Assembly (NCBI RefSeq): GCF_023555375.1 | Contig: NZ_JAJSEE010000001.1 | Span: 310,001 to 374,000, forward strand | Direction: 5' to 3' | Source: Guyparkeria hydrothermalis | GTDB lineage: Bacteria; Pseudomonadota; Gammaproteobacteria; Halothiobacillales; Halothiobacillaceae | Length of the DNA: 64,000 bases | Shown: piece by piece, positions 6,367-58,180 of the stretch | Layout of the letters: each line of letters opens with the position of its first letter | How positions within the stretch are numbered: the stretch's first letter is position 1 | Notes under the pieces: model-generated | What the model was told of the DNA's origin: nothing | What the model saw: only the letters and a program-made list of their open reading frames with translations | The model's database searches: none | Translations under genes and position numbers: made by a program

Positions 6367-6508
6367 AGATTGATCTTTAAGCATCCACTATCTCGCGCCG
6401 CCTCGGCGCCACACACTTTCAATCCTTTAAATACCTTTCTCACTTTCCACTTTGGGACGAACGTTTCCTTCGCGGGTACAACAGGTTATACCAGCCACTC
6501 ACCACAGA

Positions 6509-6662
6509 TTCACGACTAGCCCACCACGGATCCAGGACAGACACACCACAAACCAGGGACATCGTCACCACCAAATCAGGACATCTTCACCACAAAATCA
6601 GGACATCTTCACCACAAAATCAGGACATCTTCACCACAAAATCAGGACTCCTACACCACACA
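6509..6662 (+). repeat. Iteron array of the replication origin, seven 22-bp units
   Basis: Units start at 6509, 6531, 6553, 6575, 6597, 6619 and 6641, an exact 22-base period, with weaker half-units on both sides (6487, 6663). The core is ATCAGGACATCTTCACC followed by ACAAA; the three central copies are nearly identical and the outer ones diverge. There is no spacer sequence, so this is not CRISPR. Direct repeats of one helical-phase multiple just upstream of a Rep_3 initiator gene are the standard iterons of theta-replicating plasmids: they bind the Rep protein to open the origin and control copy number. Confidence 0.85.
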
Positions 6663-6770
6663 TTCGCGACTGCCTGAAGCGCAATAGAAAGTTGTTTGGC
6701 AACGCTAGTTGAGTGCATCTAATTTTCTGTTAGTGTTATTTGAACCACACCAATCGCGTGCACTATAGAC

Positions 6771-8033
6771 ATGATTGTGAACACCAGCAGAAACACTGGC
6801 AGGCCGTTGACGCTTGCGAACGACGAGCTTGTGGTCATGGCCAACGCACTCGCAAATAGCAGGTACATGCTGTCCCTCAACGGTTCCCGCCTACTCTCGT
6901 TGGCAATTACCAAGATCAATCGCCAACAACCGATCTCGTCCAGCGCCACCTTCCGAGTACACATGGACGACTGGCGAAAGATTTTTGGAGGAAACAGAAC
7001 AACCGCGTACGAAAACCTCCAGGCGGCAGCAAAGAACCTGCAGGAAGCACACATCACATTGAACCGACACCCAAACGGTGAATCGGGTGCTCCAAGCGGC
7101 GGCACGACCAAGCTGGTTGAGCAGTGTCACTACGAACCCTTAGCTGCACACGTCGAGATCGTCTGGTCACAAAAAATCAGCTCTTATTTGAGCGATCTAA
7201 AGTGCAACTTCCTTAAGCACGACGTGAGAGACATTTCTTTAATGACAAGTGCTTACGCGGTACGGCTATATCAGTTGTGTCTGGCCAACCAACCCCGAAA
7301 CTCCGCGTCATACACCCTGGATGAGCTGCTTTGGCTACTACGGCTAGAGACGTGTCCATCATATCGAGCCTCATGGAGGCTTCGTCAGCGGGTCATTGAC
7401 CCAGCAATCGCCCAAATCAATGCGCACACTCCGTTAAAACTGACCTCCACTCCCATTTATGAGGGTCGAAGAATCATCGGGATCAAACTCAACTGGGTTG
7501 TTTCCAACAAGGCCAGCGAGGCGAGCAGACTCCGCACCATGACGAAATCGGAGCGAAGAGACACCGAGATTGAAGCACCCAAGAGTCAGCATGAAAGCAG
7601 CACCACAACACGCGCTCTCAAAGCCACACCATCAAGAAGCCCGAGTATTCGAACCAACGAAACAAGGCCCGGGACTCGCCTACCGGAAGACTGGACGCTG
7701 CCCGAAAGCTGGCTTCAATGGGCCAGGGAGTATTTCGAAGCGAAAAAGCAACCGCTCACCGACGCGGAAATACTCGAGTGTGGCGACAACTTCGCCGACC
7801 ACTGGCACAGCAAGCCCGGGGAGGGTGGACTAAAGACCGACTGGGAAGCAGCCTGGCGCGTCTGGATCAGGAACGCAAGGACATTGATACCGCCGCGAAA
7901 GCGCGGGGCCAATCGCATTAAGCCATCAGGAATGGACGTGGTGCATCAGAGGATGCGGTACGAGGACGAGGGCGGGCCGACCACAATGGAGCGGGCCTTG
8001 GCGTTTCAACGAGCAAGGGGCAGCAACATCTGA
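6771..8033 (+). CDS. Plasmid replication initiator, Rep_3 family, with C-terminal extension
   Basis: A 420-residue protein. Residues 15-245 are a Rep_3 (RepA/RepB-type) initiator: LTLANDELVVMANALANSRY, MLSLNGSRLLSLAI, a first winged helix (FRVHMDDWRKIFGGNRTTAY), then SLMTSAYAVRLYQLCLAN and LRLETCPSYRASWRLRQRVI of the second winged helix. Such proteins bind iterons, and an iteron array lies directly upstream. Residues about 305-420 form a separate part (LPEDWTLPESWLQWAREYF, LKTDWEAAWRVWIRNA) like the DnaT/primosomal helicase-loading regions seen in phage and plasmid replication proteins. The next gene is a DnaC-like loader, which fits. The frame is intact. Confidence 0.85.
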   Translation: MIVNTSRNTGRPLTLANDELVVMANALANSRYMLSLNGSRLLSLAITKINRQQPISSSATFRVHMDDWRKIFGGNRTTAYENLQAAAKNLQEAHITLNRHPNGESGAPSGGTTKLVEQCHYEPLAAHVEIVWSQKISSYLSDLKCNFLKHDVRDISLMTSAYAVRLYQLCLANQPRNSASYTLDELLWLLRLETCPSYRASWRLRQRVIDPAIAQINAHTPLKLTSTPIYEGRRIIGIKLNWVVSNKASEASRLRTMTKSERRDTEIEAPKSQHESSTTTRALKATPSRSPSIRTNETRPGTRLPEDWTLPESWLQWAREYFEAKKQPLTDAEILECGDNFADHWHSKPGEGGLKTDWEAAWRVWIRNARTLIPPRKRGANRIKPSGMDVVHQRMRYEDEGGPTTMERALAFQRARGSNI

Positions 8034-8099
8034 TCTCGGTGGCACCCGGAGACCAGTGTTGATGCCAATGACAACGGCAACCAACGGGAGTAAGAAGCC

Positions 8100-8973
8100 A
8101 TGGAAAGAAGTATGCAGCAACCAATCCACCGATACAATATGAGGAAGAAGGACGATCCGCGAACCCCAGAGGAGAAGCGGAAAGCCAAGAAGACAATGGA
8201 CTTCGTGCTGGAAAAGCTCGGTGGAGCGCCTTGGGAAGAGAAGCCCCTGGTATGCAAGCGACATGGGATGTATGACGCTCTCGAGACAGCAGATGGGTGG
8301 ACAAGCTGCCCGGAGTGCGCGAGAGAGCACGAGGAGCAAAAGGCCGTCGAGGACATGGAGCGAAATCGGGCGCTGGCGAAGGCTGAACGCATCCAGCACT
8401 TCTTCGGCACCCGCCCTCTCCCGTTGAGATTCCGCAACGCCTCGCTCGCCAACTATCGCCCGCATAACGACACGCAGAAACAAGCCCTCGATCTCGCCCA
8501 GGCGCTCGCCGACCGGGTGGCCGTCGAGCCTTGCGGCGCACTGAACCTCATCCTGCTCGGGAGCGTGGGGATGGGGAAGACGCACCTCGGCTATGCCCTG
8601 TACCGCAACGCCCGTCAGGCCCGGCGCAGCGCATACCTCGACACGGTTCACGGCCTGATGGAGCGATTCAAGGCATCCTATAGTCACCGCACGACAGAAA
8701 CACCGAAGGAGCTGCTGGAACACCTGATCGAGGTTGATCTACTCGTTCTCGATGAGGTCGGCAAGTCGGCACAGACAGACCACGAGGGGGTCACCCTGCA
8801 CGGTGATCATCGACCGTCGCTGGGCGAACTCCCTTCCCATAGTGATCCTGAGCAACACGACCTTCGAGACGCTTGAGGATGCCGTGGGTGGATCGCCCGC
8901 CGTGAGCCGGTTGCTCTCCAATGGCGACGTGTTGCAGGTCAAGGGCGAGGACTACCGATTCCTCCAAGGCTGA
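8100..8973 (+). pseudogene. DnaC/IstB-like helicase loader, frameshifted
   Basis: The first frame (8100-8876, 258 codons) carries a Cys/His cluster (CKRHGMY...SCPECARE, residues about 57-80), Walker A LLGSVGMGKTHLG and Walker B LLVLDEVG, the AAA+ core of DnaC-type replicative helicase loaders. After DHEGVTL the reading continues as nonsense (HGDHRPSLGE). The +1 frame from about 8801 restores the family end: TVIIDRRWANSLPIVILSNT, through SRLLSNGDVLQVKGEDYRF to a stop at 8973. One extra base around 8787-8803, perhaps in the GGGGG run, explains this. Loss of the sensor region would inactivate the loader; a sequencing error is the alternative. It follows rep by 66 bases. Confidence 0.8.
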
Positions 8974-9022: not shown

Positions 9023-9129
9023 CATGCCCGTGACCCGGTTCAGATGAGCGCGAGACAAGTCCGTGCGTATTACTAATGGCGGAGCCTCCCCTGGCGCTGG
9101 TTCCGGCGGCGACCGTGAGAACCGCACAG

Positions 9130-9165: not shown

Positions 9166-9912
9166 TCAGTTTCCGGCCCGCGACGGGGCCGACAAACTGG
9201 CCGCCGGGTGCCGCAATGCCGCTGCGCTCCGAACGAGACGGGGTGCCGCGCTGCGATGGCGAGGGGCGCAGGAAAAGCCTCGGGGGCAAGGATGGAGGGA
9301 GGCCCGGTTCAGGGGGAAGGGCAGGCCCCATTTGCATTCGAACCATATCAGGATCAGCCCGAACGCCGTGCAGCAACGGCAATCGCACTGCCTGACCCGT
9401 GCTAGGGCGCAAGGCCCATGCTGGTGCGGTCGCGGCAGGCACTCGTGCCGCCCGACACCCCTGGCGGGGGTTTTCCTTTAAGCCCTCCCTCCGCCGTTGC
9501 TCCGGTCGGGAGAGAAGCTGCTATCGCAGCTAGAAGGAGCATCTGCGATGCAAGGAGGAGCGCCTGCGGCGCATCCACGGCCTCAAGGGCGGCAGGCCCA
9601 AAGTCATCGCCTTTGGCGCTCTCGGCGCTTTTTTGCCCTACATACCCGAGCCAGGTGTGGCAAAGCTCGCCCCGGAGAGCGCCCCTTACGCAAATGGTCC
9701 CGACCAAGGATGCAGGGTCCAGAGGGGGATTGCTTGGTGGACACGCCTCCGGTTCACCACGCCCGAACCATCCTGGACCAGACGAATCGAGAGACGACGC
9801 ACTGCGCCGCTGGCCCCGGCAGGTTAATGGACGAGTACACACCAACGGTGCGGCCTTGGCAAAGGGGTCGGACAGCTAACCGAGGAGGAAGGATAATATC
9901 TACGAACTTGAA
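9166..9912. other. Intergenic region of about 750 bases, no gene recognised
   Basis: Several frames are open here on both strands, but none has a convincing start, codon pattern or family match. One plus-strand stretch near 9553-9655 reads KEERLRRIHGLKGGRPKVIA, faintly like a mobilisation-protein fragment, but I cannot support it. Probably decayed plasmid DNA at the junction with the siderophore island. Confidence 0.4.
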
Positions 9913-43015: not shown

Positions 43016-43714
43016 CTATCGATTAGTTCCTCGAGACACCCGCAACCCGCCGTGTGCAAACATGTTATCCGAATCATGCGAACCGAGTTTACTCACCCGG
43101 CTTCCTTCCAGCACATACGACAGGCTCAACAGCATGTCCTCGCCATCCGACTTCTCCTGAGCACGGTCAACCAGCCGCTCGATCTCCCGGCGCACCGTCT
43201 TGGCGTGCATCGCATTCGACCGGCCCCGTTCCTCCCCGGAGAGCTGCAACTCCCGACCGCGGGCCAACACCTGGCTTCGCCTGGCAATCAGTCGCTTCGC
43301 CAGCAACACCGCCTCGCGCACCTCATCTGAGTGGCGCTCAAACCCACCCCATGACTCCACGCTCTTTTCCGCCCGCGTACCCAAACGGATCGTCTGCCAC
43401 CCACGGCGCACCTGCTTCCACTTCACCAGGTACGGCTCCACGGCATCACCATCCGAACGGGAAGGAGTCTTGCGCCACAGCACACGAATCCGGCCCGTCG
43501 CCGGGGGCTGCAATCGCCACAGCAAACGATCCACGGCAAGGATGCTTCGGTTGAGCATCTGAACGGAGGAGAGCAGGCCATCAACACCACGCTCCAAGCG
43601 GGCACGAAAGCCAGCCTCCGAACGGGACACAAGCTCAAGAACACAACCCTCGTATCCATCATCCCCAGCGTCACTCGAAGCACATCCGAGCGGGGAAAAG
43701 TCATCGTTAGCCAT
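43016..43714 (-). CDS. Hypothetical protein of a mobile-element remnant
   Basis: 232 residues from ATG 43714 (MANDDFSPLGCASSDAG), chosen because GGAGGT stands 10 bases upstream on the minus strand; a GTG at 43777 would add 21 residues but lies inside one of the direct repeats. The protein is basic and largely helical (SILAVDRLLWRLQ, VREAVLLAKRLIARRSQVLA, RREIERLVDRAQEKSD), with no TM helix. I do not recognise a family with confidence; short ICE-encoded proteins found near topB have similar size and layout, but this is only an impression. It is the terminal gene before the nitrate island. Confidence 0.55.
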   Translation of the reverse strand: MANDDFSPLGCASSDAGDDGYEGCVLELVSRSEAGFRARLERGVDGLLSSVQMLNRSILAVDRLLWRLQPPATGRIRVLWRKTPSRSDGDAVEPYLVKWKQVRRGWQTIRLGTRAEKSVESWGGFERHSDEVREAVLLAKRLIARRSQVLARGRELQLSGEERGRSNAMHAKTVRREIERLVDRAQEKSDGEDMLLSLSYVLEGSRVSKLGSHDSDNMFAHGGLRVSRGTNR

Positions 43715-43909
43715 CGCGGCCAATACCTCCACAAGCAGTTCGGAAAGGACATCTGAACGGCGAGGAGAAACAAGCACTCACGGCATCAATTCCACACCGG
43801 GTAATCGAAGCGCATCTGAACGGCGAGGAGCCAATCAATGCCACACGATCATCCATCTGCCCGCAGGTTGTAGATAAAGCCAGCACAGGCCCATCTGAAC
43901 GGCGGGGAG
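43683..43909 (-). repeat. Spaced direct repeats of an 18-bp unit
   Basis: Plus-strand CATCTGAACGGCGAGGAG at 43750-43767 and 43813-43830 (identical), 43892-43909 (one change) and a degenerate copy CATCCGAGCGGGGAAAAG at 43683-43700. Start-to-start spacings are 67, 63 and 79. Further degenerate copies occur inside the gene (for example 43557 and 43450). They occupy the upstream region of the hypothetical protein gene. Confidence 0.75.
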
Positions 43910-44000
43910 GCCAGTCGGATGCAGCACGGGGAGAGCTTCTTAACCGGCAGGGTTCTCGCACAGGTGTTTAGGGCTTCCGGCGCATGGTGCTGTTCACGCT

Positions 44001-44159
44001 GACTGTCACAGTCGCCATGATGAACACACGACGATTAGAGGGGCTTTGCATACACATGTATTTTTCTGAGTGTCACATTGACAGTTAATGTGACTGTGAC
44101 TCTCACAGTTCATGTTGCCTGTGCATGTGATTGTCACTGTCACAGTGACAATCACATGC
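44001..44159. repeat. Cluster of four palindromes built from a GTCACAGT motif
   Basis: Four inverted repeats in 160 bases: GACTGT/ACAGTC at 44001-44013; GTCACATT/AATGTGAC at 44072-44094 (7-base loop); ACTGTGA/TCACAGT at 44093-44109 (3-base loop); and a perfect 17-bp-arm repeat at 44123-44159 with arms GCATGTGATTGTCACTG and CAGTGACAATCACATGC around TCA. All share the words TGTCAC/GTGACA. No coding frame spans them. Confidence 0.9.
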
Positions 44160-44273
44160 GACTTTGATCCTCACAACAAATCGCGCTCCTCACCCTCACC
44201 CGCCGTAATAGAGCGCCGTGAACACGCTAACTAACGTGATCATGCGATCCGATTCACAGCTCACACCCTTCGC

Positions 44274-44399
44274 CAGCTGCAGGTGAACCCCGACATCACG
44301 GCCAAGTGGGAGATGGACTTGAAGAAGATCGCGTAGGGGAAGATGTCACTGGCCGACTTCGAGGCCAGCATCAACCGCTTCGTGGCCTACATCCTCTAA
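44274..44399 (+). pseudogene. Topoisomerase III C-terminal fossil
   Basis: Reading from 44274: QLQVNPDITAKWEMDLKKIA, stop (TAG 44334-44336), then GKMSLADFEASINRFVAYIL and stop at 44397. This is the C-terminal signature of TopB-type enzymes (a ...P.vTAkWE..L..I..G..sl..F...i pattern). The in-frame stop and the missing upstream part show it is dead. TopB genes of this type sit on integrative conjugative elements, so this supports an ICE origin for the island. Confidence 0.65.
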
Positions 44400-44466
44400 T
44401 AGGCCAGTGATAGCCAAAGGAGCCTATCGATCTCCGGGGGGAGCCACGAAATCCGGGCGTAAAAAA

Positions 44467-44494
44467 GGGCAGGCCCGCAAAAGGCCCGCCCGTA
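44467..44494 (-). terminator. Terminator of the XRE regulator gene
   Basis: On the minus strand GGGCGGGCC, loop TTTTGC, GGGCCTGCCC and then six T. It lies about 30 bases past the stop of the minus-strand regulator. Confidence 0.8.
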
Positions 44495-44525
44495 GTGGTA
44501 CGTCGAATCGAGGCAGGAAGGCCGG

Positions 44526-45053
44526 TTAGCCTTCGTCCTCGTCGTTGACCACCTCGACAATGGGGGTCATGTCCAGCAGCGCCTCTTGGGCGAGCTTCTG
44601 GTACATGAGCCCCATTGTTACTTTCGCCTGCTCGTCCATCGCGTCCCACACCTTGCGAGTCGGGGCCAGGTCGCGCCAATCAGGATGGCGACACATCGAG
44701 GCGTAGACCGCCTCAAGCTGGTCCTCGAGATCACGCTCCTCCTCCATCACGAAGTCGGATGGCTCAAGAATCTCGGCGAGCATCAAGACTTGCGCAAAGG
44801 GGATGCCGAGGAACTTTCCGATGGAGCGCAGGCGCTTGTGGGAAATCTTCGGCACTTCCCGCGATCCGTTCAGGATCAGGATGAGGTAGCTGTAGGTCAG
44901 GCCTGACTCTTCAGCCATGCCGTGACGGTCAAGACCAAGCTCTTCGCCTTTTTCAAGAATCGCTCGGGTAAGAGCCGAACCTGGAAGGTATCGCGGCTTG
45001 CTTTCGGCACCTTCCTCGAGCAATTCCTCGTTCGCCGCATCTTCTTTTCCCAT
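44526..45053 (-). CDS. XRE-family transcriptional regulator
   Basis: 175 residues from ATG 45053 (MGKEDAANEELLEEG), preceded by AAGGGGG; the longer frame to 45437 is an extension without signals. Residues 30-95 form an HTH of the XRE type: RAILEKGEELGLDRHGMAEE, SGLTYSYLILILNGSREVP, SIGKFLGIPFAQVLMLAEI. The rest is acidic and helical, ending in VVEVVNDEDEG. On the minus strand TTGACT and TACTTT near 45105-45080 are plausible promoter boxes. Likely controls the nearby element genes. Confidence 0.75.
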   Translation of the reverse strand: MGKEDAANEELLEEGAESKPRYLPGSALTRAILEKGEELGLDRHGMAEESGLTYSYLILILNGSREVPKISHKRLRSIGKFLGIPFAQVLMLAEILEPSDFVMEEERDLEDQLEAVYASMCRHPDWRDLAPTRKVWDAMDEQAKVTMGLMYQKLAQEALLDMTPIVEVVNDEDEG

Positions 45054-45590
45054 AACTTTCCCCCTTGTTAATGACCCCACAAAGTAAGGCAACGAATTCC
45101 AAGTCAACTTAAGCCCAGCCAGAACAACAGTTGCGATGAGTTGTGACAAAGGCCAGCGTGGGGGCGAAGAAAACTTTAGTGTTGCTCCAACGGACCCATG
45201 CGCGGGCGTTCGCCTGCAGCAATCCTCGACAAGGCCCCAATGCCCAACCACCCGGATTGGCAAAAGGCCTTTAATACCTTTCACTTCACTCCAGAGCGTT
45301 AATCGACACCCGATGCCCACCGATTTTTGGGGGACTCTCTTTGCTCCCCTCCTAGCAACACAAAGCTCCTCTTTGCCGCCTCTAGGCCAACTTACCACAT
45401 ATGCCCCATGCATACACACAGCGCAACTCACACACATTGTTGATCTTTTTTACACCAATGGTATTGTCGCCGAAGTGCAGAGCACCCGCGGCTCTGTACT
45501 AAGAACTGGTGCCTATACAAAAGGGAGCCACGCCCGCGTGCCCACCATGCAACCCGTCAGAGGACAACTGCCACTAGCAATGAGGTTTTG
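45054..45590. other. Divergent intergenic region of the integrase island
   Basis: About 540 bases between the XRE gene (minus) and the AlpA-like genes (plus). The one long frame (45136-45591) has no sensible product. Promoters for both directions should be here; near 45440-45465 TTGATC and TATTGT with 16 bases between could serve the plus side. Confidence 0.45.
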
Positions 45591-45806
45591 ATGAAAATCG
45601 AAAGAGGAATCGAGGCAAGGGCAATGAATGCACAAGAAGTCGCAGCCCACTGCGGAATGGGTCGGAGCACGCTCTATCAAATGATCAGATCAGGGGAGTT
45701 CCCCGAAGGAATGATGGTCGGCTGGGGACGACGATGGCTTCGAGAGGAAGTTGACGCCTGGCTTGACCAACAATTTCAGGTCGCAAGCGAAAGACAGACG
45801 GATTGA
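45591..45806 (+). CDS. AlpA-like HTH excisionase/regulator
   Basis: 71 residues from ATG 45591, or 60 from ATG 45624 (MNAQEVAAHCGMGRSTLYQM). Typical AlpA/HTH_17 layout: EVAAHCGMGRSTLYQMIRSG, then EFPEGMMVGWGRRWLREEVD and AWLDQQF. Such small MerR-like winged-helix proteins activate the integrase or act as excisionase on P4-like islands. It lies close to the P4-type integrase gene, facing it. Confidence 0.85.
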   Translation: MKIERGIEARAMNAQEVAAHCGMGRSTLYQMIRSGEFPEGMMVGWGRRWLREEVDAWLDQQFQVASERQTD

Positions 45807-45816
45807 GGAACAACAA

Positions 45817-46062
45817 ATGCCCATGCACTCAAATGAATCAACACCGACGATGCTTCAACGCCGGCCGCCGCATTTGGACCGCTACATGAAGACCAGCGAG
45901 CTATGCGAACGATACGGACGAAGTGTTCGCACACTCATCCGCTGGCAAGAAACTCGCGGTTTTCCACAGCCGATGATTCAAGGCGGGGGCGGCACCGAGC
46001 ACCGCTGGCTGGCGCAGGACGTTATGGAGTGGGAGGAGTCTTTGCGGAAACAATCTGCATGA
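45817..46062 (+). CDS. Second AlpA-like HTH protein
   Basis: 81 residues from ATG 45817, with GAGGAA 7-8 bases upstream. Contains RYMKTSELCERYGRSVRTLI, RWQETRGFPQPMIQGGG and EHRWLAQDVMEWEESLRK, an HTH_17/AlpA-type fold like the preceding protein. It starts 10 bases after the first AlpA gene. Its last 40 bases overlap the 3' end of the convergent integrase gene. A pair of such proteins probably controls excision and expression. Confidence 0.75.
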   Translation: MPMHSNESTPTMLQRRPPHLDRYMKTSELCERYGRSVRTLIRWQETRGFPQPMIQGGGGTEHRWLAQDVMEWEESLRKQSA

Positions 46063-47251
46063 GACGATCCCACCACTTCCGATAGACCTCGGCCTGCTCC
46101 TCGAGATAGTCGTGTCGGTCGTAGACCTGCCACACCCCCGGCAGGGAGTGGCCCAGCATCACTTCGCACACATGGGGCGGTCCGAGCGAACTCCAATTCG
46201 TTCGGGCCGTCTTGCGTAGGTCGTACAGACACATACCCGGCAGCGGCGCGTTGAGCTGCCTCTCGGCGGCATTGAGGATCGAGCGATGGAAGGACACCGT
46301 AGATCGATCACCTAGCTCGGTGGGCTTGCTCTCACCGCTGAACAGCATTCGTGGATTCATCGAGAGCGCCATCGCCTCCTCAATCCACGGGATCACTTCG
46401 TCGATCAGGGGTCGGCGGAGCGGTCGCTTGGTCTTCTGCCCAGTCTTGTGGCGTTCCGGCGGGATTTCCCACACCTTGTTCTCGAAATCGAACTCGGAAA
46501 CTGCGGCGGTGCGAAGCTCGCCAGGACGGCAGCCGAAGAACAAGGTCAGTTTCACGAATAGCTTGGAGCGGGCGGCCAAGCGAGAACGCTCGGTCGCGTG
46601 CCACACAACCCACAACTCGCGGTCAGTGAAGGCCCGCCCGGAATCCTTGTTCTTGTGGATGTTGAGGTCGGCTCGGGCTGTCATGTTCGCCACTGGCTCT
46701 TGGGACATGTAGCCCCAGCGACGCGCCCACTTGTGGCATTGGCGCACATTCGTCAGAAGGCGGGAGGCTATCGAGGGAGACGCATCCCTCACGGATTCCA
46801 GCAGGCCCATCCAAGCATGCGTAGTCGTGTCGTCGGCGGGGAGATCACCGATTTCCGGGAAAACGTACCTCTCGAAGCTACGTAAAATCTCGTCAGCCCC
46901 GACCTTGTTAATCACGACGTACTTCTCATGCCAAAGACGAAGTAGCGTCTCGTTAGTGTGCTGCCCCTGAACGGCTCTCTTCTCGACTTCGCGGCGCACC
47001 CGCGGATCATGCCCCTCTTCGAGCTGCTTTCGGCGACTTACGACCTCCTCCCTAGCTTCCTTGAGGCTCATCACGGGGTAGGCACCCAAATCCATACGAG
47101 CAGCCTTGCCGTGGTAACGAAAGCGGTACTGGAAGACGATCTTGCCCTTACGGCTGACCCTCACACTCAGCCCATCACGATCAGACTTCTCAAGGACCGA
47201 ATCACGATGTTTTTGATAGGCGTTTTTTAACCAAAGATTCGTGATTGACAT
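46022..47251 (-). CDS. P4-type tyrosine integrase
   Basis: 409 residues. N-terminal arm-binding domain (SDRDGLSVRVSRKGKIVFQY, KAARMDLGAYPVMSLKEARE), core-binding domain, and catalytic domain with Arg in GCRPGELRTA, LYDLRKTARTNWSSLG (the usual H of HxxR is Tyr here, the Arg is kept), His in VMLGHSLPGVWQVY and the nucleophile Tyr in VYDRHDYLEEQ. Integrates the island. Start ATG 47251 gives the standard beginning MSITNLWLKNAYQK, although no good ribosome site precedes it. The gene's 3' end overlaps the second AlpA gene by 41 bases. Confidence 0.9.
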   Translation of the reverse strand: MSITNLWLKNAYQKHRDSVLEKSDRDGLSVRVSRKGKIVFQYRFRYHGKAARMDLGAYPVMSLKEAREEVVSRRKQLEEGHDPRVRREVEKRAVQGQHTNETLLRLWHEKYVVINKVGADEILRSFERYVFPEIGDLPADDTTTHAWMGLLESVRDASPSIASRLLTNVRQCHKWARRWGYMSQEPVANMTARADLNIHKNKDSGRAFTDRELWVVWHATERSRLAARSKLFVKLTLFFGCRPGELRTAAVSEFDFENKVWEIPPERHKTGQKTKRPLRRPLIDEVIPWIEEAMALSMNPRMLFSGESKPTELGDRSTVSFHRSILNAAERQLNAPLPGMCLYDLRKTARTNWSSLGPPHVCEVMLGHSLPGVWQVYDRHDYLEEQAEVYRKWWDRLMQIVSAKTPPTP

Positions 47252-57475: not shown

Positions 57476-58180
57476 TCACAACTCGGCGACGATGGCCTCC
57501 AGCGCCTTGCCCGGCTCAGCCGCCGCCGTGACGGGGCGGCCGATGACCAGGCTGGTCGCGCCGTTGGCCAGCGCCTCGGCCGGCGTGACCACACGCCGCT
57601 GATCGTCACGGGCACTGCCCGCCGGCCGCACCCCGGGGGTCACGACCAGGCCGGATTCGCCCGGGAACAGCGCTCGCATCGCGGCCGCTTCGCGAGCCGA
57701 ACAGACCACGCCGTCCAGCCCCGTGTCGGCGGTCAGGCGCGCAAGCCGCTCAACCTGCGCCTCGGCACCATCGATCACGCCAACTTCGACCAGGTCGGCG
57801 TCCTCCATCGAGGTCAGCACCGTCACCGCGATCAAGGCCGGGGCATCCGCGCCCGGGGCGATCGCCTCACGCGCCGCCTCCAGCATCCGTCGCCCGCCGC
57901 TGGCATGCACGTTGACCAGCGCCACGTCCAGATCGGCCGCGGCCCGGCAGGCCTGGGCCACCGTATTGGGGATGTCGTGGAACTTGAGATCGAGGAATAC
58001 CGGGAACCCGCGCTCACGGGCCCATTCGACCGCGCGCGGGCCCAAGGCGGTAAACGCCTCCTTGCCGATCTTGACCCCGCAGAGCGACGGATCGAGCACC
58101 GCAAGCAGATCGCGGACGCGTCCCTCGTCGGCAGTATCCAGCGCGACGTAGATGCGTGGCTGGGAACGGTGGCAAGCCAC
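57476..58180 (-). CDS. pyrF: Orotidine 5'-phosphate decarboxylase
   Basis: 234 residues; [20 protein letters not shown], catalytic [32 protein letters not shown] and the phosphate-binding [20 protein letters not shown] with [10 protein letters not shown]. Makes UMP. It starts 2 bases after the ihfB stop, a common gammaproteobacterial pairing. Confidence 0.96.

Follow-up and report, generated by a model that had tools for sequence, protein, structure and literature searches.

The cluster of palindromes at positions 43985-44160 of the window (the whole 64-kb stretch of Guyparkeria hydrothermalis DNA analyzed here) almost certainly represents the parM upstream region of a mobile element like the one found in Thioalkalivibrio sp. 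ALMg11. Judged from its sequence, the block is probably an orphaned parM-proximal centromere/operator array of a plasmid-like mobile element, with ParR as the probable binding protein. This reading is preferred because repeat arrays ahead of parM bind ParR in known ParMRC systems. The coordinates of the block, its neighbors and the corresponding features of ALMg11 are collected in Table 1.

Table 1. Features of the window and of the ALMg11 element
Feature	Position	Strand	Basis or context
Window: 253-aa ORF	43016..43777	-	relatives divergent to parM in ALMg11, pAt1 and EbN1
Window: second repeat family, CATCYGAACSG-type	43450..43909	+	inside and upstream of the 253-aa ORF
Window: block, degenerate ACWGT array with four palindromes	43985..44160	.	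ACWGT positions; words common to the ALMg11 parM upstream
Window: palindrome GACTGTCACAGTC	44001..44013	.	sequence
Window: palindrome GTCACATTGAC/GTTAATGTGAC, 11-nt arms, 10/11 paired	44072..44094	.	sequence
Window: palindrome ACTGTGA-CTC-TCACAGT, 7-bp arms (ACTGTGA/TCACAGT)	44093..44109	.	sequence
Window: perfect palindrome, 18-bp arms, 1-nt center	44123..44159	.	sequence
Window: deletion-junction stretch	44160..44250	.	colinear DNA and protein matches on either side
Window: topB 3' fossil, stop-broken, 5' part gone	44250..44438	+	ALMg11 topB codons 544-606, 56%; also pAt1 topB
Window: XRE-like helix-turn-helix gene, far side of topB	44526..45053	-	48% over 176 aa to ALMg11; weak HTH_19 match
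Window: AlpA/excisionase-like gene	45588..45806	+	Pfam HTH_17, Phage_AlpA
Window: second excisionase-like gene	45751..46062	+	PHROG excisionase and DNA-binding families
Window: tyrosine integrase	46022..47251	-	Pfam Phage_integrase, Arm-DNA-bind_3
ALMg11: ACWGT cluster 1	near 179875		upstream side of F-type tra genes, ~2 kb from traU
ALMg11: ACWGT cluster 2	183207		inside the Rep_3 ORF reading frame, behind its Rep domains
ALMg11: ACWGT cluster 3	189440-189620		parM upstream
ALMg11: parM	189687-190709		
ALMg11: parR-like gene	190712-191161		
ALMg11: topB	191161-193044		
ALMg11: ACWGT cluster 4	201403		between an AAA ATPase gene and a YqaJ gene (likely start 201565)

Inspection of the sequence confirmed all four inverted repeats that a first-pass annotation had placed in the block, the last of which is indeed a perfect hairpin, although its arms measure 18 bp and not the 17 bp given there. 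The block is non-coding, as that annotation held, in that no ORF of at least 60 aa crosses it (three mechanical ORFs of 34-49 aa touch it), and it contains no terminator-like site, in agreement with the statement that the palindromes are not a terminator series. No Rfam match at gathering score was obtained anywhere in the window. The G+C content is 46% in the block vs 63% in the window, and inverted 6-mer pairs within 60 nt number 30, vs a shuffle mean of 11.9, a count reached by 1 of 500 shuffles. When the window was tiled (3192 tiles), the block overlapped 5 of the 12 tiles richest in such pairs; the richest tile of all, at 57501-57561 (57521), ranks ahead of the block. The predicted RNA fold of the block has a z-score of −4.49, and an equally good fold was obtained in 1 of 200 shuffles.

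Underlying these palindromes is a 5-bp dyad, ACWGT, which together with one variable base steps by 6 nt. Copies start at 44002, 44008, 44081, 44093, 44105, 44136 and 44142, so that 7 of the 34 copies in the window fall inside the block; the best other 176-nt tile of the window holds 2, and no tile held more than 4 in 200 length-matched sequences simulated with a first-order Markov model. Among adjacent ACWGT pairs no more than 40 nt apart, the step is a multiple of 6 nt in 4 of 5 cases in the block, in 18 of 18 in the ALMg11 clusters and in 5 of 6 in a second array of the G. hydrothermalis genome; steps of 31 and 73 nt also occur in the block. Since ACWGT and GTNAC both have dyad symmetry, arrays of this kind are nearly palindromic by themselves. 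Tandem Repeats Finder reported nothing on the window block, which is therefore not a clean satellite, and returned periods of 6, 12 and 24 for ALMg11 cluster 3. At position 6 of the GTNACN hexamer, A or T was counted in 84 of 90 cases from six arrays (both strands); the controls, which include the arrays themselves, gave 90 of 346 for the window and 130 of 364 for 60 kb of ALMg11.

Relatives were reached through the genes flanking the block. The product of the 253-aa ORF is related to proteins of ALMg11 (59% identity over 184 aa), pAt1 (35%) and EbN1 (33%), and was found in 1 of 96 genomes searched, its own. A structural model of this protein gave no PDB match at E ≤ 0.001, and an assignment to Csx1_HEPN was rejected (22.5 bits vs a cut-off of 23), the relatives in pAt1 and ALMg11 having no match to that family. 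Five exact copies of CATCYGAAC, which in the second repeat family runs on into C/G-rich letters, lie beside the block; in ALMg11 there are 17 copies, all within 181219-191028 around rep and parM, with none in the 20-kb flanks on each side. Two further copies were seen in the window, one at 9046 near a Rep_3 gene and one in moeA. On the other side of the block, the two neighbors named in the first-pass annotation are both real: the tyrosine integrase, and topB as a 3' fossil with an internal stop, which is 66% identical to ALMg11 topB over 44 aa and scores 24.5 bits against the NCBIfam topB model, under the cut-off. A search for an empty insertion site found none: moeA was matched in 4 of the genus's 10 other genomes, but the flanks fetched there lacked the BCCT gene. 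The longest exact repeat common to the two flanks compared measures 10 bp and gives no evidence of att sites. Elsewhere in the window, a Rep_3-type initiator ORF (6771-8033) is 27% identical to an ALMg11 Rep_3 protein, with a 22-bp tandem array (6500-6660) just upstream and an ATPase-like ORF (8100-8876) behind it; the stretch 6500-8876 is read as an integrated plasmid replicon, perhaps of the same element family.

A scan of a genome collection with three relatives yielded two loci, in ALMg11 (contig NZ_KB898873.1) and Allochromatium humboldtianum, the former being the closer. The ALMg11 mobile element is colinear with window positions 43016-45053, as is, at a greater distance, plasmid pAt1 of Allochromatium tepidum. 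The ALMg11 order is 253-aa homologue, gap, parM, parR-like gene, topB and XRE-like gene, and at the DNA level window positions 43217-43564, 44259-44406 and 44659-44903 are colinear with ALMg11 188591-188935, 192799-192946 and 193221-193465, respectively. The window lacks about 3.2 kb of this order: parM and the parR-like gene are gone, as is topB as far as about codon 544. A tblastn search with the ALMg11 ParM and ParR found no trace of either at the block, the best match in the window being no better than E 0.5, and no ALMg11-type ParM was found in the G. hydrothermalis genome at E ≤ 1e-5, in a search that finds ParM in two other genomes (G187 and G188). Because the cognate parM and parR are absent in cis, the block was not classed as a working parC.

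In ALMg11, the gap between the 253-aa homologue and parM (about 189440-189620) is packed with the words of the block. Over 180 nt, hexamers drawn from ALMg11 alone score 32 in the block and at most 7 in the rest of the window, with a mean of 0.88. In the reverse test, the ALMg11 parM upstream scores 22 with words of the block, and the next best score in that 16.6-kb locus, 14, falls on another array; the same words score 26 at the second array of the G. hydrothermalis genome, 8 at the pAt1 locus, 7 in A. humboldtianum and 4 in EbN1. ALMg11 is the only intact relative that carries them. The ACWGT unit occurs 7 times in the block and 10 times in ALMg11 cluster 3. In ALMg11 the array lies upstream of parM, and the window keeps the colinear place with parM gone. 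The hairpins behave otherwise. The first-pass annotation had proposed conservation of the hairpins as a check, and the ALMg11 counterpart has a fold z-score of −0.91, vs −4.49 in the block, and 11 inverted pairs against a shuffle mean of 9.9, a count reached by 202 of 500 shuffles. As the counterpart shows neither fold excess nor inverted-pair enrichment, the hairpins are not what has been conserved. The perfect 18-bp palindrome may have arisen locally and later, e.g. by template-switch correction of a near-palindrome.

Direct searches with the block itself returned little. BLAST against its own genome and a set of 96 genomes that includes it and its relatives gave short weak words only, plasmids gave one weak match and phages none; matches over query positions 38-63 were taken as chance, one place that was read (L003) resembling membrane-protein coding sequence. 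The mobile-element homologue that the first-pass annotation proposed to search for was recovered, but through gene order and word content only. The pattern GTSACWGTSACWGTSAC is present in 5 of 187 genomes, the G. hydrothermalis genome itself and G083, G090, G097 and G127, with no occurrence in the family's 26 other genomes; by eye, the occurrences in G083, G090 and G097 have the appearance of simple repeats in coding sequence, and the match list for G127 indicates an array of one hexamer. BLAST of the ALMg11 parM upstream against plasmids gave short matches in 4 records. The best of these, 39 nt at 87% identity (E 3e-3), was observed in Erwinia amylovora pEA60 (9399-9437), where it falls at the beginning of a hypothetical gene followed by a ParB-like gene. 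A ParM match at E ≤ 1e-10 was obtained in 4 of the 144 genomes around ALMg11, namely ALMg11 itself and three at 28% identity, and no relative of the ALMg11 ParM or of the 253-aa family was found in viral contigs.

More distant relatives keep the place of the repeats and not their sequence. On pAt1 the order is 253-aa homologue, gap, ParM, a hypothetical gene, topB, another hypothetical gene and the XRE-like gene, and on plasmid 1 of Aromatoleum aromaticum EbN1 it is 253-aa homologue, gap, a divergent ParM and an annotated ParR. Both parM upstreams contain repeats at the matching place, in other sequence than the ACWGT words, and the repeat words of each form one cluster. A 15-letter pattern from EbN1 (at most 1 mismatch) has 14 of its 22 matches ahead of parM, the other 8 being single, and the three exact copies of the pAt1 pattern all lie ahead of parM, its other 13 matches having 3 mismatches each and being no more numerous than those of a control pattern. 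Palindromes were surveyed at 13 loci from 34 plasmid records with ParM relatives, together with EbN1, pAt1 and ALMg11. The observed number of inverted pairs was reached by at most 8 of 500 shuffles at L053, L058 (which is AT-rich), L059, EbN1 and pAt1, and by at least 35 of 500 at the other 10 plasmid loci, with 202 for ALMg11; a 7-mer repeat score over the parM upstreams gave a mixed picture. Conserved palindromes were accordingly rejected as a mark of parM upstreams, since 10 of the 13 plasmid loci and ALMg11 are not clearly above shuffles, and a conserved word array takes their place in our description because palindrome enrichment is not general. Some other plasmid parM upstreams have palindromic words of their own, among them GCAATGCGCATTGC in Burkholderia pBVIE01 and TGCACTGCACACTGCACAGTGC in Pseudomonas p716811-VIM; within the own-word upstreams L053, L059 and L050, inverted pairs are clearly enriched in the first two and not in L050.

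The motor encoded beside the ALMg11 array is actin-like: ALMg11 ParM matches Pfam ALP_N with 67 bits (cut-off 26) and, in the PDB, the pCBH ParM (E 7e-8). ParR proteins have a strand-helix-helix layout with a C-terminal helix. The model of the 149-aa ALMg11 ParR-like protein contains a strand, two helices and a C-terminal helix at low confidence (pLDDT 60 for the model, ~60-77 for the strand-helix-helix part), and no PDB fold match at E ≤ 0.001 was found for it; its sequence profile gave one weak PDB match (E 0.88), to 2q2k, which we take to be the ParR of pSK41.

The parM upstream is not the only place where the unit is concentrated. Four clusters account for 23 of the 34 ACWGT copies in 60 kb of ALMg11; the tra genes on whose upstream side cluster 1 lies were identified by Pfam as TraU, TrbC, TraN, TrbI-like and TraC. 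The pattern GTSACWGTSACNGT has one match elsewhere in the ALMg11 genome. The second array of the G. hydrothermalis genome (C3:141019-141125) belongs to an island in which a tRNA-Phe gene is followed by the integrase, and which also has a CHC2-type primase fragment and a DUF3987 protein. A 203-aa protein of this island, which itself has no Pfam match, shares 35% identity over 118 aa with the YqaJ protein encoded behind ALMg11 cluster 4, and no parM relative was found in the 20 kb around the array.

The data presented above have led us to propose a model in which ParR, as an RHH-like adaptor, would cover the 6-nt-phased ACWGT array of the intact element, and the array so coated would serve as the centromere pushed by actin-like ParM filaments. 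Standing ahead of parM, the array would also be an operator through which ParR limits its own operon, and with other arrays lying close to Rep_3, upstream of tra and ahead of yqaJ, the same protein may act at several places. Among the four options of the first-pass annotation, a multi-site operator comes closest to this reading, as the site is the ALMg11 parM upstream place with the same words. Both the identity of the binder and the centromere and operator actions are what we infer. In the window, the deletion that took parM, the parR-like gene and the greater part of topB has deprived the array of its motor; it is now presumably inert, or could at best be bound by a ParR from another element. 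Against this model stand the single intact relative with these words, the arrays away from parM, one of them inside the Rep_3 frame, the single cluster formed by the words in EbN1 and pAt1, the low-confidence ParR model, palindrome enrichment that is not general, and the second array of the G. hydrothermalis genome with no parM nearby and no ParM of this type found in that genome.

Alternatively, the arrays may be operators of another element-wide regulator, such as the XRE-like protein, with parM as one of several promoters. This is an unlikely though not far-fetched reading, favored by the position of the four ALMg11 arrays near tra, rep, parM and yqaJ and by the XRE-like gene, which survives in what the window retains and whose relatives occur in 37 plasmid records. 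However, no array was seen upstream of the XRE-like gene in the window (by eye) or in ALMg11 (from a list of GTSAC sites), which counts against XRE because an autoregulator is expected to have one, and the words of EbN1 and pAt1 cluster ahead of parM only. We consider it improbable that the block is a degenerate hexanucleotide satellite, produced by slippage and rearrangement in mobile DNA with no bound protein. Its 6-nt period, the tandem periods detected in cluster 3 and the GTGACA-type hexamer arrays in other genomes would fit such an origin, but the silence of Tandem Repeats Finder on the window block, the unequal positions of the unit (the A/T preference at position 6 of GTNACN) and an array place ahead of parM kept in two genera argue against it.

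The remaining three options of the first-pass annotation, an origin of transfer, a single-strand origin and a structured RNA, all build on the hairpins, and we regard them as very improbable. The strong fold of the window block and an integrase 2 kb away speak for them, whereas the ALMg11 counterpart folds no better than shuffles and lacks an excess of inverted pairs, the element has four arrays and not one, Rfam gave no match, and none of the five neighboring window proteins scanned for the relaxase proposed as a check matches a Pfam relaxase family. A fossil coding stretch of Val-Thr repeats (GTN ACN) is scarcely credible: one frame of some arrays does give VTVTVT over roughly 10-20 codons, but no ORF of at least 60 aa lies over the block, the 31- and 73-nt steps break the frame, and the bias at position 6 greatly exceeds that of the window and ALMg11 controls, which include the arrays.

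Should ParR bind all four ALMg11 arrays, an actin-type partition system would have a multi-site centromere doubling as a regulon, an arrangement that, in the parts of the literature examined, is described for the Walker-type system of pSM19035. A broader proposition, which we advance as doubtful, is that 6-nt-phased dyad ACWGT arrays, several per element, constitute an undescribed type of centromere for actin-based partition that also supplies operators of rep, tra, parM and recombinase genes; a literature search found no description of such arrays. In that case, the arrays orphaned in two islands of the G. hydrothermalis chromosome might capture the ParR of an incoming element, and either hitch-hike on the partition of that element or interfere with it. 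The palindrome cluster is now testable with one named protein, the ALMg11 ParR, and one motif. It also illustrates that an orphan centromere can be recognized after loss of its motor by the gene order and word content of relatives, and not by BLAST of the site.

Of the systems compared, the ALMg11 element is the closest: it matches the window in gene order and in the words ahead of parM, and differs in having parM, the parR-like gene, a full topB, Rep_3 genes and F-type tra genes, the window keeping only the two ends of the par-topB stretch. Chromosomal ParMs are known (PMC12270681), and the srpMRC locus of SXT/R391 ICEs is an actin-type partition locus on an integrating element, whose centromere, srpC, lies upstream of srpM, contains direct and inverted repeats and is bound by SrpR in EMSA (PMC4489591). 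In the portion of that report drawn on here, srpC comprises four 13-bp repeats in one place (PMC4489591), whereas the present arrays are 6-nt-phased ACWGT and number four in ALMg11; the likeness is drawn by description. Similarly, the parC sites of R1, pB171, pSK41 and pCW3 are repeats upstream of parM bound by an RHH ParR, but as set out in the parts of the source consulted they are direct repeats of 10-20 bp, in contrast to the short dyad units found here, which read alike on both strands (PMC9426499). The multiplicity of sites has a parallel in the omega/parS system of pSM19035, in which short units in direct and inverted order form six arrays per plasmid that overlap promoters and act as both centromere and operator through an RHH protein (PMC9499535). 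There, according to the sections used, the units are contiguous, non-palindromic 7-bp WATCACW heptads, in place of 6-nt steps, and the motor is a Walker-type ParA (PMC9499535), whereas the motor beside the ALMg11 array is actin-like (Pfam ALP_N); this parallel too is drawn by description: short repeated units, in several arrays per element, that would serve partition and regulation together.
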